From NCBI RefSeq assembly GCF_900411375.1, contig NZ_LS423004.1:1-58351 (forward strand): 58,351 nt of DNA, in the 5' to 3' direction. Of this stretch, positions 17,753-31,775 are shown one piece after another. Source of the stretch: Lentilactobacillus raoultii. GTDB lineage: Bacteria; Bacillota; Bacilli; Lactobacillales; Lactobacillaceae. The notes beneath the pieces are model-generated. The model ran no database searches. It had not been told where the DNA came from and was given only the letters and a program-made list of their open reading frames with translations. Position numbers and translations under genes: made by a program. Every line of letters begins with the position of its first letter. The stretch's first letter is position 1.

Positions 17753-17880
17753 GTTTGAAAAGTTGTTGATAGAGCTAATTTTTTGACCGCTTAAGCGAAT
17801 TAAGGCACCACTTGCGCAAAATAGATTTACCGGCTTAGCTTATAATGGTCTAATAAGGTTATAGGGAGTGGATGCAAGTC

Positions 17881-18330
17881 ATGAAAGTTCGAGTGGAAAT
17901 AGATAATGAATTAACTGATAAAGAAATCGTGATCAAAACGCCACACTATGATGCTCAAGTGGCGGCGCTGTATCAATCGGTTCAAAAATCATTTGGCCAA
18001 CACCAGCCGCTTGTCTTTTATAAGGGAGCATCAGAGTATTACCTTGATTTGAGCGAAATTCTCTTTTTTGAAACGGACGGGCGGCAGGTCCTTGCACATA
18101 CAAGTCATGATCAGTACGTGATTCATCATCGTTTGTATGAGCTGGAAGAGTTATTGACGGGGCGCTTTGCACGAATTTCCAAATCAGCCATTATTAATCT
18201 TGATCAAATCTATGCTTTGACCCACTCCCTCTCTAGTACAGTAGTTCGTTTTCAAAACTCCCCAAAGCGGGTTTATGTTTCTCGGCGCTATTACAAAGCG
18301 CTGAAAGATCGGTTAGAAAGAAGACGGTAG
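17881..18330 (+). CDS. LytTR-domain transcriptional regulator
   Basis: A 149-residue stand-alone LytTR regulator without a receiver domain. The C-terminal half has the family landmarks YYLDLSEILFFETDGRQV, a YELEELL helix, FARISKSAIINLDQI and YVSRRYYKALKDRL. Such proteins bind direct repeats and are usually encoded with a membrane partner, as here with the next gene 4 bp downstream. Two in-frame ATGs compete: 17872 is 3 nt from AGGGAG and 17881 is 12 nt from it; family N-termini (MKVRVEID) favour 17881. A TATAAT lies at 17841-17846. Confidence 0.88.
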   Translation: MKVRVEIDNELTDKEIVIKTPHYDAQVAALYQSVQKSFGQHQPLVFYKGASEYYLDLSEILFFETDGRQVLAHTSHDQYVIHHRLYELEELLTGRFARISKSAIINLDQIYALTHSLSSTVVRFQNSPKRVYVSRRYYKALKDRLERRR

Positions 18331-18334
18331 AATT

Positions 18335-19084
18335 ATGAGAAAAGCAGTTAGACAACGTTGGTTAGCCGGTTTGGTGTTTTTGTTGGCTGCTCTGGCCTGG
18401 TTGTCGGTTGAAGTTGGGTGGTTAAACTTCCACGTTAGTTTAATGACTTTTTTGGTGACAATTGTTTTAGTGATTATTTTAGGGTCCTGTTTAATCAATT
18501 TAAATGTTTTTGGCAGTGTCTTTTCAGCAGCCTTTTTAGTGATGTTGTACGCAGGACCACTCGGAATTACACGACTCGTCCCATGGACAATTTTAGGCAT
18601 TGCTCTGTTGATCGGAATTGGCTTGTCACTAATTTTGAGACCCCTTATCCATAAGCAACGCTGGAAAAAGTGGCAGCGATGGTTTGACTGGGATGATCAA
18701 AGAAATGACTGGCATCGACCAAATTTTATTGAAAATACCGGTGCTGACGATGGCTCCTATATTCACGTTAATGCTCAGATGGGCAGTGCGGACCGGTATA
18801 TTGAAAGCCAAAATTTCAAACAGGCCGATATTCGAGCCTCAATGGCTGATGTGAATATTTATTTTAATAAGGCCAAGATCAAAGGAGATTCGGCAATCAT
18901 TAATATTGAAGGTTATATGTGCGATATCAACATCACAGTCCCCAGTTATTGGCATGTGGTCAATCATATTGATCCGTATCTGGGTGGCGTTTCTGCCAAC
19001 ACCAAAACGGTAGATCCAAGTCAACCGACAGTCTATCTAAACGGCCGGGTTAGTTTGGGTGATTTGAAAGTATTGTATGCCTAA
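18335..19084 (+). CDS. LiaF-like membrane protein
   Basis: About 249 residues. Four membrane helices occupy the first ~105 residues, then a soluble C-terminal domain with the repeating beta pattern typical of LiaF/DUF2154 (MGSADRYIESQNFKQADIRASMADVNIYF, then DINITVPSYWHV). LiaF proteins restrain cell-envelope stress signalling; in LAB they are often paired with LytTR regulators. It is separated from the upstream regulator by only 4 bp, so the two form a regulator/membrane-sensor pair, probably for envelope stress. A strong terminator follows. Confidence 0.82.
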   Translation: MRKAVRQRWLAGLVFLLAALAWLSVEVGWLNFHVSLMTFLVTIVLVIILGSCLINLNVFGSVFSAAFLVMLYAGPLGITRLVPWTILGIALLIGIGLSLILRPLIHKQRWKKWQRWFDWDDQRNDWHRPNFIENTGADDGSYIHVNAQMGSADRYIESQNFKQADIRASMADVNIYFNKAKIKGDSAIINIEGYMCDINITVPSYWHVVNHIDPYLGGVSANTKTVDPSQPTVYLNGRVSLGDLKVLYA

Positions 19085-19152: not shown

Positions 19153-19452
19153 CTAGATATCTCCATGGCGGCCAGTATCCAAAAATCGAATTTGGTCACC
19201 TTGATAATCGTAAATTAGCAACCATTCTCCCTTAATGAATAAAGCACGTTGCGGTTTTCGATTCTTAATAACGTGGTCATCATATCGCTCATCAGGGCGT
19301 CGGCCACTGGTAAGAATGGTTTCAATGGCTTTAAATTCGGCTTCGGAATAGCGGTTGGCTCGAATCATATTTCGATAATGTTTTTTGAAACGTGATTGGT
19401 ATTTTACCCGATATTTCGTAATATTCACTTCTTTGTCATGGACTTTAAGCAC
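19153..19452 (-). CDS. YafQ-like type II toxin, without an adjacent antitoxin
   Basis: The product (99 residues from the GTG, or 91 from an internal GTG at 19428) has the RelE/YafQ layout: YQSRFKKHYRNMIRANRY, then LTSGRRPDERYDDHVIK, PQRALFIKGEWLLIYDY and the C-terminal IRFLDTGRHGDI. YafQ-family toxins are ribosome-dependent mRNA endonucleases, and the catalytic region normally has His residues near the end, one of which (GRHGD) is visible. DinJ/RelB-type antitoxin genes normally precede them; the upstream DNA holds only the small-RNA terminator. A TATAAT sits right before the GTG. Confidence 0.78.
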   Translation of the reverse strand: MLKVHDKEVNITKYRVKYQSRFKKHYRNMIRANRYSEAEFKAIETILTSGRRPDERYDDHVIKNRKPQRALFIKGEWLLIYDYQGDQIRFLDTGRHGDI

Positions 19453-19464
19453 ATTATACCAAAT

Positions 19465-19577
19465 AAAAAGCCAAGGCTGGGGGGCCTTGGCTTCGTAGTA
19501 TCAATATTCTGAGGGGAATATGAATATGAAAAGTAACAAATTAATGGGGGTTAATTTATCACCTATCTCTTCTTCAT
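19465..19577 (-). ncRNA. Candidate small RNA A with C-rich loops
   Basis: A minus-strand unit of about 113 nt, starting ~7 nt after a -10 box (19589-19584) and ending in an intrinsic terminator (GCCAAGGC / GCCTTGGC with loop CCCCCA, then TTTTT). Two further hairpins present C-rich loops: AAATTAA/TTAATTT around CCCCCA and ATATTC/GAATAT around CCCTCA. Sequence and structure match units B and C nearby. Only a 21-codon ORF on the opposite strand is present, and it lacks support. C-rich loops of this kind pair with Shine-Dalgarno sequences in known Gram-positive sRNAs. Confidence 0.7.
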
Positions 19578-19583
19578 GTTTTT

Positions 19584-19637
19584 AATATACAGGATAAATT
19601 TAAACAAAAAAGGACGAAACTGTGAATATTTTGTGAT
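19584..19637 (-). promoter_or_regulatory. PhoP/OmpR-type promoter of sRNA A
   Basis: On the minus strand: ATCACA (19637-19632), 5 nt, TTCACA (19626-19621), two degenerate boxes in the same 11-bp phase, 9 nt, then -10 TATATT (19589-19584). The distance from first box to -10 is identical in the three sRNA units and in the 53.1 kb gene. No usable -35 is present, which suggests activator dependence. Confidence 0.6.
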
Positions 19638-19727
19638 TTCTTTGGCGACACCTTTAAGAAAGTGGAAAAACAGTCGGAAATTTCTTAAATTCTATTGACA
19701 AATGGTGAAATTGTTTGAACTAAAACC

Positions 19728-19865
19728 AAAAAAGAAAAGGTGTGGGGGCACCTTTTCTTTGCTAATATCTTTATTAATTTGAGGGGGAAATGAAAGTGAA
19801 GCCAAAATAACCTGAATTTCGTTTTTAGTGGAAATTAATTAACGGTTCTTTGACATCTCTTCACT
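19728..19865 (-). ncRNA. Candidate small RNA B with C-rich loops
   Basis: A minus-strand unit of about 138 nt. The terminator stem AAAGAAAAGGTG with its partner CACCTTTTCTTT encloses CCCCC and is followed by TTTTTT. An internal ATTT/AAAT hairpin exposes CCCCCTC, and AATTTC/GAAATT forms a third stem. No convincing ORF. It is the central copy of three tandem homologous units. Confidence 0.7.
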
Positions 19866-19871
19866 GTCTAT

Positions 19872-19925
19872 AATGTACTCTAAAATTGTAACGAAATTAT
19901 GCTCAAAATGTGAAGAAAGTGTGAA
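19872..19925 (-). promoter_or_regulatory. PhoP/OmpR-type promoter of sRNA B
   Basis: Minus strand: TTCACA (19925-19920), CTTTC, TTCACA (19914-19909), TTTTG, AGCATA (19903-19898), ATTTC, GTTACA (19892-19887), 9 nt, -10 TACATT (19877-19872). Four hexamers with exact 11-bp period. Confidence 0.65.
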
Positions 19926-20083
19926 GATCGTCAAAACCGTTGAAGGGCAAGCCATTAGACGCCCTCAAAAAGGGTGGATTTTGCTTAAATGATCTTGCTG
20001 GACACTTTTTAGTCGAAAAAGGGGGCAAAGGTGATACGCTTACATTGATACAAAAGTAATATGTTTCCTACTTTTTTCACCAC

Positions 20084-20222
20084 AAAAAAAGATAAGACAC
20101 GGGGATGTCTTATCTTGATACCTATATTCTAGGGGAAGAATATGAATACAAAAGTAATAAATTAAATTAAAGGGGGATTTAATTTATTGCGGCATGAGTG
20201 AACTTACTTACCTCATGCAACA
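20084..20222 (-). ncRNA. Candidate small RNA C with C-rich loops
   Basis: A minus-strand unit of about 139 nt with four hairpins: GCATGAG/CTCATGC at the 5' end; AAATTAAA/TTTAATTT around TCCCCC; ATATTCT/AGAATAT around TCCCCT; and the terminator AGATAAGACA/TGTCTTATCT around TCCCC(G) followed by TTTTTTT. Three loops carry UCCCC. It is homologous to units A and B and diverges from the esterase gene. Confidence 0.75.
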
Positions 20223-20228
20223 GCTATA

Positions 20229-20282
20229 ACTATATAGGTGAGTTGTTTCCAAATAGTGAAATTTTTGTGAAGATTTTGTGAA
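20229..20282 (-). promoter_or_regulatory. PhoP/OmpR-type promoter of sRNA C
   Basis: Minus strand: TTCACA (20282-20277), AAATC, TTCACA (20271-20266), AAAAT, TTCACT (20260-20255), ATTTG, GAAACA (20249-20244), 9 nt, -10 TATAGT (20234-20229). This is the best copy of the shared promoter. Confidence 0.7.
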
Positions 20283-31420: not shown

Positions 31421-31467
31421 GTTTTTGTTGACTCTCCCGCCAACATCCATTATTCTTAAATTAAGAC

Positions 31468-31562
31468 AACACTAGGGGTGTCGCCACAAGCGGCTGAGAT
31501 GGATCTGTTCGATCTGGTCCCTTGGAACCTGTAAGACAATGCTTGCGTAGGGAAAGTGACAG
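31468..31562 (+). ncRNA. TPP riboswitch (THI element)
   Basis: Contains the conserved blocks of the thiamine-pyrophosphate aptamer in order: ACTAGGGGTGTC, GGCTGAGATGG, CCCTTGGAACCTG and GCTTGCGTAGGGAAAGTG. It lies about 220 nt before thiM and no other gene intervenes, so it controls the thiMDE operon according to thiamine supply. Confidence 0.95.
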
Positions 31563-31775
31563 TGAGACATATTGATAGCAGTGTTCGAGGATGATGAGCT
31601 ATCTGTGTGTCGAAGTTATGGTTGTGCTCGTCACAATCTCGGTTGAGTTGAAGTGATCAAAAGCACTGATAAGGATTTTTCATTTACATAAAGAATCCCT
31701 CAATTATCCAGACGTTGGCATTTGGGCTGCAGGCAATTTTTAAGTTGTCGCAGCTCAATTTTAGTTTAAGGAGAA
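31563..31775 (+). promoter_or_regulatory. Expression platform of the TPP riboswitch
   Basis: About 210 nt with several possible stems, including GGCTGC (31723) with GCAGCT (31751) near the thiM start and a possible GGATT/AATCC stem around 31672-31708. No textbook hairpin plus T-run is clear, so control may be by a long-range terminator or RBS masking. thiM RBS AAGGAG at 31769-31774. Confidence 0.4.

Follow-up and report, generated by a model that had tools for sequence, protein, structure and literature searches.

Three putative tandem small RNA genes with C-rich sites and a shared repeat promoter in Lentilactobacillus raoultii

Results

Organization of the locus

The window analysed here is a 58,351-nt stretch of Lentilactobacillus raoultii contig NZ_LS423004.1. 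On its minus strand, positions 19465-20282 are ORF-free and hold three predicted stand-alone RNA units, A, B and C, which are listed below with their promoter elements, proposed pairing sites and flanking genes.

From 20352, plus: alpha/beta-hydrolase gene, upstream neighbour of the cluster
20257..20282, minus: predicted regulator box of unit A, TTCACA-N5-TTCACA-N5-TTCA, exact match (PWM score 30.3; leave-out 27.7)
20229..20234, minus: predicted -10 of unit A, TATAGT, 31 nt past the second repeat
20083..20222, minus: unit A, predicted sRNA of ~140 nt, 5' end deduced from the -10
20156..20188, minus: unit A hairpin I with CCCCC in the loop (inverted repeat, fold, pairs with two-sided changes)
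20132..20144, minus: unit A hairpin II, proposed anti-AUG and anti-SD site CAUAUUCUUCCCC, conserved in A-type units
20089..20116, minus: unit A terminator, loop CCCC (hairpin terminator scan)
19900..19925, minus: predicted regulator box of unit B, exact TTCACA-N5-TTCACA (PWM 27.7; leave-out 26.1)
19872..19877, minus: predicted -10 of unit B, TACATT (4/6), 31 nt past the second repeat
19726..19865, minus: unit B, predicted sRNA of ~140 nt, uncertain 5' end
19783..19792, minus: unit B proposed anti-AUG and anti-SD site CAUUUCCCCC (CAU/C-run pattern)
19731..19760, minus: unit B terminator, loop CCCCCA (terminator scan and inverted repeat)
19612..19637, minus: predicted regulator box of unit C, ATCACA-N5-TTCACA (PWM 30.1; leave-out 27.4)
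19584..19589, minus: predicted -10 of unit C, TATATT, 31 nt past the second repeat
19466..19578, minus: unit C, predicted sRNA of ~113 nt
19513..19522, minus: unit C hairpin II, proposed anti-AUG and anti-SD site CAUAUUCCCC (CAU/C-run pattern)
19467..19494, minus: unit C terminator, loop CCCCCA (hairpin terminator scan)
19153-19452, minus: YafQ-like toxin ORF (Pfam PF15738)

The first-pass annotation had placed three minus-strand units in a gene-free region, and this is borne out at approximately 140, 140 and 113 nt; the interval from the YafQ-like ORF to the alpha/beta-hydrolase gene contains no ORF that reaches 50 aa. It had also described the units as homologous, with CCCCC or TCCCC terminator loops and further C-loop hairpins in each, which is correct only in part. 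All three end in a terminator (20116-20089, 19760-19731 and 19494-19467), with loops that read CCCC in A and CCCCCA in B and C; among 11 hairpin terminators of at least 10 pairs found by script across the whole window, only these three have a CCC apex. Homology and additional C-loop hairpins hold for A and C, which are paralogues, and the AAATTAA..CCCCC..TTAATTT and ATATTC..CCC..GAATAT stems reported as common to them are real in both sequence and fold. Unit B has a different body but has the promoter, terminator design and a C-run in common with the others; this C-run, UUUCCCCCUCAA, lies outside the terminator and is unpaired in the predicted fold, in which the terminator is B's only C-loop hairpin. 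B-type units are also present in relatives. Compared with 200 dinucleotide shuffles each, the predicted folds of A and C have z-scores of -7.5 (no shuffle as good) and -6.4 (no shuffle equal), and that of B (19726-19860) is weaker (z -2.7; one shuffle as good).

Two irregularities are visible within the array. Between A and B, the minus strand at 19960-20077 may hold a remnant of another unit with C-rich scraps nearby, and a 14-nt sequence at 20048-20061, ATACAAAAGTAATA, repeats unit A positions 20146-20159. At 19560-19575 (minus), unit C is without the 5' hairpin and CCCCCC run that relatives (L002, L003) have, and the gap falls between two ATAG copies, as a slippage deletion would give. On the plus strand, the genes for a LytTR regulator and, after it, a LiaF-like membrane protein (17872-19084) adjoin the cluster.

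Conservation and structure within the genus

Searches by blastn with the region and by covariance model each matched all 24 genus genomes, our own included in the former. A hairpin search found 54 units, distributed over 22 of the 24 loci with between one and three apiece; the remaining two loci (L023, L024) come from genomes with weak covariance matches only. In the window the model recovers unit A (20083-20193, E 2.8e-17) and unit C (19462-19565, E 5.6e-18), both of which are within its own alignment. Outside the genus, covariance matches are found in 4 of 373 genomes and are weak (E 2e-5 to 6.5e-4).

Thirty-seven of the 54 units could be aligned as A and C types after dropping 2 duplicates and 15 units without the defining pattern (four of which look A/C-like) and trimming one unit. 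Across this alignment 97.9% of cells are paired, against 31-44% in slid controls. Two-sided changes occur in 12 of 27 pairs (shuffle mean 7.8; 1 of 500 shuffles as high) and in 69 cells (shuffle mean 17.5), compensatory evidence that backs the predicted A/C fold. Hairpin II has no two-sided change among the 37 units, so its pairing rests on conservation. All three loops contain C residues that are invariant in the alignment. When the whole window was compared with Rfam, which contains an LhrC model, only a distant TPP riboswitch (31464-31571, plus) reached threshold; the cluster region gave 16 matches at E <=10, all far below gathering scores and none of them to LhrC.

Promoter architecture

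What unites A, B and C is a repeat box and a -10 before every unit, a feature missed in the first-pass annotation. The box consensus, TTCACA-N5-TTCACA-N5-TTCA, has the 11-bp period usual for binding sites of OmpR-family response regulators, and we consider it very likely that the regulator belongs to this family. A PWM built on 40 unit promoters of the genus finds only three strong sites in 58 kb, one per unit and all on the minus strand, two further matches above 12 being register shifts of the same three; scores remain high with a leave-out PWM from which the window and its two nearest genomes were removed. With at most one mismatch, TTCACA-N5-TTCACA occurs 4 times in the window where 0.57 are expected (1 of 100 shuffles has as many).

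Of the 54 genus units, 51 bear a box, and in 39 of these a -10-like hexamer (at least 5/6) lies exactly 31 nt past the second repeat; the other 12 have no good -10 at that distance, and a second offset, 18, scores best in 8 units. Among 56 C-loop RNAs from other genera, 17 have their best-scoring hexamer at offset 31 and another 31 have it at offsets 7-12; offsets of 31 and 9 are separated by two helical turns.

Box-led RNAs in other genera

The same repeat precedes C-rich, terminator-ended RNAs of different sequence in eight or nine other genera (genus labels such as g4 are numbers, not names); it is the box, and not the RNA sequence, that extends to them. The exact repeat is found in 224 of 397 family genomes and, in a set of 121 genomes, 134 times compared with 45 for the reversed pattern. 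At the loci listed, 28 boxes are non-coding, and a C-apex terminator follows 40-240 nt downstream in 18 of them and lies on the upstream side in none; these 18 box-plus-RNA loci (15 in g4, 3 in g13) include related units and are not independent counts. Pooling gives 56 of 114 with a C-apex terminator after the box and 0 of 114 upstream (by source 18/28, 34/54 and 5/34), a comparison that is neither unbiased nor evenly controlled: 60 stretches were chosen by eye among the matches listed with some listed places skipped, and the short stretches hold only ~84-100 nt of upstream sequence. One set of 22 genomes was selected as informative.

The RNAs themselves take several forms. In g4, a 5' hairpin precedes CUCAYCCCCCCUAUAA and the terminator is often of the UCCCC type, an arrangement seen in several Lentilactobacillus class C units and not in unit C of the window. 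Those of g3, g12, g25, g30 and g38 have a CAUUU..ACUCC(U/C)CC hairpin, and those of g9 have C-rich sites with plain terminator loops; one g19 RNA (L229) is likewise C-rich. A second box-driven class in g4 (L141, L142, L145, L155, L159) has the box ~12 nt from the -10, a AAACAAACUAAU stretch, a CCUCCCU site and a terminator loop without a C-run.

Candidate regulators

Nine matches to the OmpR-family DNA-binding domain are present in the L. raoultii genome. We compared box abundance with regulator presence over the 121 shared genomes, using the reversed box pattern as control. Box and control counts are 122 and 34 in the 81 genomes positive for a PieR-like regulator, and 12 and 11 in the 40 that are negative. 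The association holds in genomes with PieR-like and without CiaR-like (47:9, 45 genomes) or without PhoP (8:1, 20 genomes), and no excess appears where CiaR-like (11:11, 32 genomes) or PhoP (4:8, 15 genomes) occurs without PieR-like. In this correlative comparison among related genomes, then, repeat abundance appears to track PieR-like better than CiaR-like or PhoP. Box counts and ortholog lists were compiled by hand; G041 (54% identity) was counted as PieR-like-negative and G030 and G086 as LisR-like-negative, PhoP was scored as present where a second match in addition to WalR was found, a single genome (G071) contributes 12 of the 45 control matches, and three OmpR-family regulators (L098, L101, L102) were left out.

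Outside the genus, a box leading a C-apex RNA was seen in 13 profiled genomes, every one of them PieR-like-positive, and in PieR-like-negative genomes a C-apex terminator follows none of the 11 boxes read (of 12). The best contrasts within a genus are G133 and G131, where such a terminator follows 1 of 13 and 0 of 2 boxes. The PieR-like gene is present in all 11 profiled genomes of g6, g10 and g37, yet these have few or no boxes. The candidate regulator and its kinase score best against the NCBIfam families for PieR and PieS, the Listeria monocytogenes PieRS system, both under the curated cut-offs (292.7 vs 450 and 450.7 vs 850). No convincing box accompanies the PieR-like gene itself (best score 7.3), and autoregulation is not indicated at any of the nine OmpR-family regulator loci, whose scores of 7.3-10.2 were not accepted as sites. 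Elsewhere in the genome, a box precedes two genes, one for a transglycosylase-associated protein and one for a second membrane protein (L039 574-1425, minus).

A PieR-like protein specifically is our modestly favoured candidate. An unlikely but substantial alternative keeps the same RNAs and mechanism and assigns them another OmpR-family driver: LisR-like (L097), PhoP or an unprofiled one. The Mann-Whitney p for PhoP (4.7e-06) is near that for PieR-like (3.8e-06), but besides the lack of excess where PhoP occurs alone, the PhoP-negative g3 genomes G095 and G121 have box-plus-RNA loci (L205, L226). Of the 121 genomes, 107 were scored as having LisR-like, box-rich ones and the 13 above included, so that the profile does not separate it; it is also present in 31 of the 40 PieR-like-negative genomes, however, with no excess there (10 boxes vs 11 control). 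A regulator with a poorly conserved receiver region (L099 1456-2190, minus) adjoins a gene that we take to be PstS-like, the promoter of which has TTTACA-type repeats with an 11-nt period by eye. Such repeats would suit a different regulator, but position 3 of the box is C in 38 of 39 sites with a base there, where pst has T.

The regulator L100, which we presume by resemblance to be CiaR-like, is rejected on the 121-genome profile, in which repeat abundance does not follow it, and box-plus-RNA loci are present in the CiaR-like-negative genomes G035, G095 and G121. The CiaR box TTTAAG-N5-TTTAAG, with up to 2 mismatches, occurs 17 times in the window compared with 12.7 expected, which is no more than chance, and in none of the three promoters.

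Proposed pairing with translation initiation regions

In all three units a CAU stands 2-6 nt ahead of a C-run (CAUAUUCUUCCCC in A, CAUUUCCCC in B, CAUAUUCCCC in C), and the complement of these sites is AGGGG, a short spacer and AUG. With the terminator removed and 200 dinucleotide shuffles as control, a strict form of this pattern is present in 46 of 51 genus units (shuffle mean 6.0, max 13). Among the 56 C-loop RNAs from other genera it is present in 21 (mean 4.7, max 12), of which 8 have a single g4 sequence in common, 12 belong to the CAUUU..ACUCCUCC kind and 1 is other. A looser pattern, which also counted spacer-less CAUCCCCCC and matches inside terminator stems, is found in 37 of the 56 (mean 10.0, max 19). 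The signal is weaker outside the genus than within it. For g12, CAUUUUUACUCCUCC has GGAGGAGUAAAAAUG as its complement, which would make an ideal initiation region.

The pattern AGGGGR-N3-9-ATG occurs 201 times in the L. raoultii genome compared with 69 for the reversed pattern. Thirty of these 201 loci were sampled, with duplex energies that ignore accessibility; the 28 read, 19 with an ORF of at least 60 aa, reveal no clear functional theme. From the site geometry we consider it likely that the units act by anti-initiation pairing, and their likeliest action would be repression of translation initiation.

Alternatively, the C-rich RNAs might sequester a protein, such as one that binds C through a KH domain, without mRNA pairing. 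Repeated C-rich loops in tandem copies, with loop Cs conserved while stems vary, would suit such a sponge, but it would not require a CAU at start-codon distance from the C-run, which appears in several unrelated sequence versions, nor the CUCCUCC loop of some other genera, which is anti-SD and not plain C. We regard sequestration as improbable.

Neighbouring genes

The hydrolase neighbour, which has relatives in Lentilactobacillus hilgardii, L. parafarraginis and L. diolivorans (3 loci), is kept in 22 of 23 relatives' loci, and the downstream gene is variable, which argues for stand-alone RNAs and against leaders. The YafQ-like ORF has no visible antitoxin, since no ORF as long as 50 aa lies upstream of it as far as the hydrolase gene, and a YafQ-like sequence accompanies the cluster both in the window and at 12 of the 23 loci from relatives, so one could imagine the units as type III-like RNA antitoxins. 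This is very improbable: 11 of the 23 loci (of which L004 and L015 end at contig ends) have no YafQ-like match, without the adjacency of RNA and toxin gene expected of such systems, L006-L009 and others have a different downstream gene, and each unit has its own promoter box. Hardly more credible is that the units are untranscribed chance terminators or decayed intergenic repeats, for which the possible degenerate half-unit between A and B might speak, given a box, a fixed spacing and compensatory changes conserved across the genus.

Discussion

We regard the three units as highly likely to be genuine sRNA genes, a real, conserved set that is probably regulator-driven. The initial proposal of multicopy tandem sRNAs with C-rich sites directed at Shine-Dalgarno sequences is favoured by conservation, compensatory changes, promoters and the anti-SD/anti-AUG geometry.

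Among known systems, the closer analogue is not the LhrC family named in the first-pass annotation but the streptococcal csRNAs, which it did not name. In the excerpts of the csRNA literature considered here, these are multicopy, short RNAs with their own terminator and response-regulator promoters of two hexamers separated by N5, carrying sites complementary to the SD and start codon, with CAU in 53 of 61 (PMC3091779, PMC8186281). The predicted RNAs of Lentilactobacillus resemble them in each of these respects, including the CAU/C-run pattern in most genus units and all three window units. They differ in the box (TTCACA vs TTTAAG), the C-apex terminators and the sequences themselves, and CiaH homologues are stated in the excerpted text not to be found in Lactobacillus (PMC3091779).

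The LhrC parallel holds as an analogy and, given the Rfam result, fails as membership. As excerpted, LhrC1-5 of Listeria monocytogenes are multicopy, with redundant CU-rich sites in a stem-loop, a single strand and the terminator, and they need LisR; important promoter residues lie from -55 to -59 and from -72 to -75, and the paper knew of no consensus (PMC4132741). Both share a tandem arrangement, several C-rich sites, the terminator loop among them, and probable two-component control. LhrC also binds Hfq; lactobacilli apparently lack hfq (PMC3091779, in part). Our best reading is that the units work like csRNAs and LhrC and, by the tests made, belong to neither, forming a putative separate family. 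The first annotation was not aware of such a family in lactobacilli; we found no description of such RNAs in these bacteria among the matches listed from the open-licence literature.

Our explanation is that one OmpR-family response regulator binds TTCACA-N5-TTCACA repeats ending 31 nt before the -10 and would thereby co-activate all three trans-acting small RNA genes. Each RNA would stop at its C-apex terminator and expose several C-rich sites, at least one of which (CAUAUUCUUCCCC, CAUUUCCCCC or CAUAUUCCCC) complements an AGGGG or GAGGGG Shine-Dalgarno sequence and start codon at short natural spacing. We infer that the RNAs are transcribed and would pair with translation initiation regions, such that translation is repressed when the regulator fires. 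The likeliest regulator would be the PieR-like protein from a PieRS-like pair that is encoded at another place in the genome; envelope or secretion stress would then be the suggested signal. In Listeria, the secretion chaperone PrsA2 is a member of the PieRS regulon according to the part of the source at hand (PMC12234432), making such stress a reasonable guess; a term search of the available main text of that paper returned no 'sRNA', 'direct repeat' or 'binding site'. We judge this explanation as a whole, with its PieR-like driver as the likeliest, to be probable.

A broader reading is more tentative, and we place it just short of even. It holds that Lactobacillaceae possess an undescribed sRNA regulon in which a PieR-like envelope-stress regulator, acting at a fixed-geometry TTCACA-N5-TTCACA promoter, drives fast-evolving multicopy anti-initiation sRNAs as an independent counterpart of the csRNAs; the sRNAs would share little sequence between genera while keeping the anti-SD site, often with an anti-AUG. 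On this reading, the family would plausibly have gone without a name because its body sequence shifts from genus to genus, the promoter geometry and the anti-initiation sites being retained. A usable search rule follows, consisting of the box, a 31- or ~9-nt spacer to the -10, a C-rich RNA and a terminator, together with a candidate regulator. If this reading is true, the csRNA strategy would be seen working with a different regulator and box, and many food and gut bacteria would control translation under stress by way of an unnamed, two-component-driven sRNA family.
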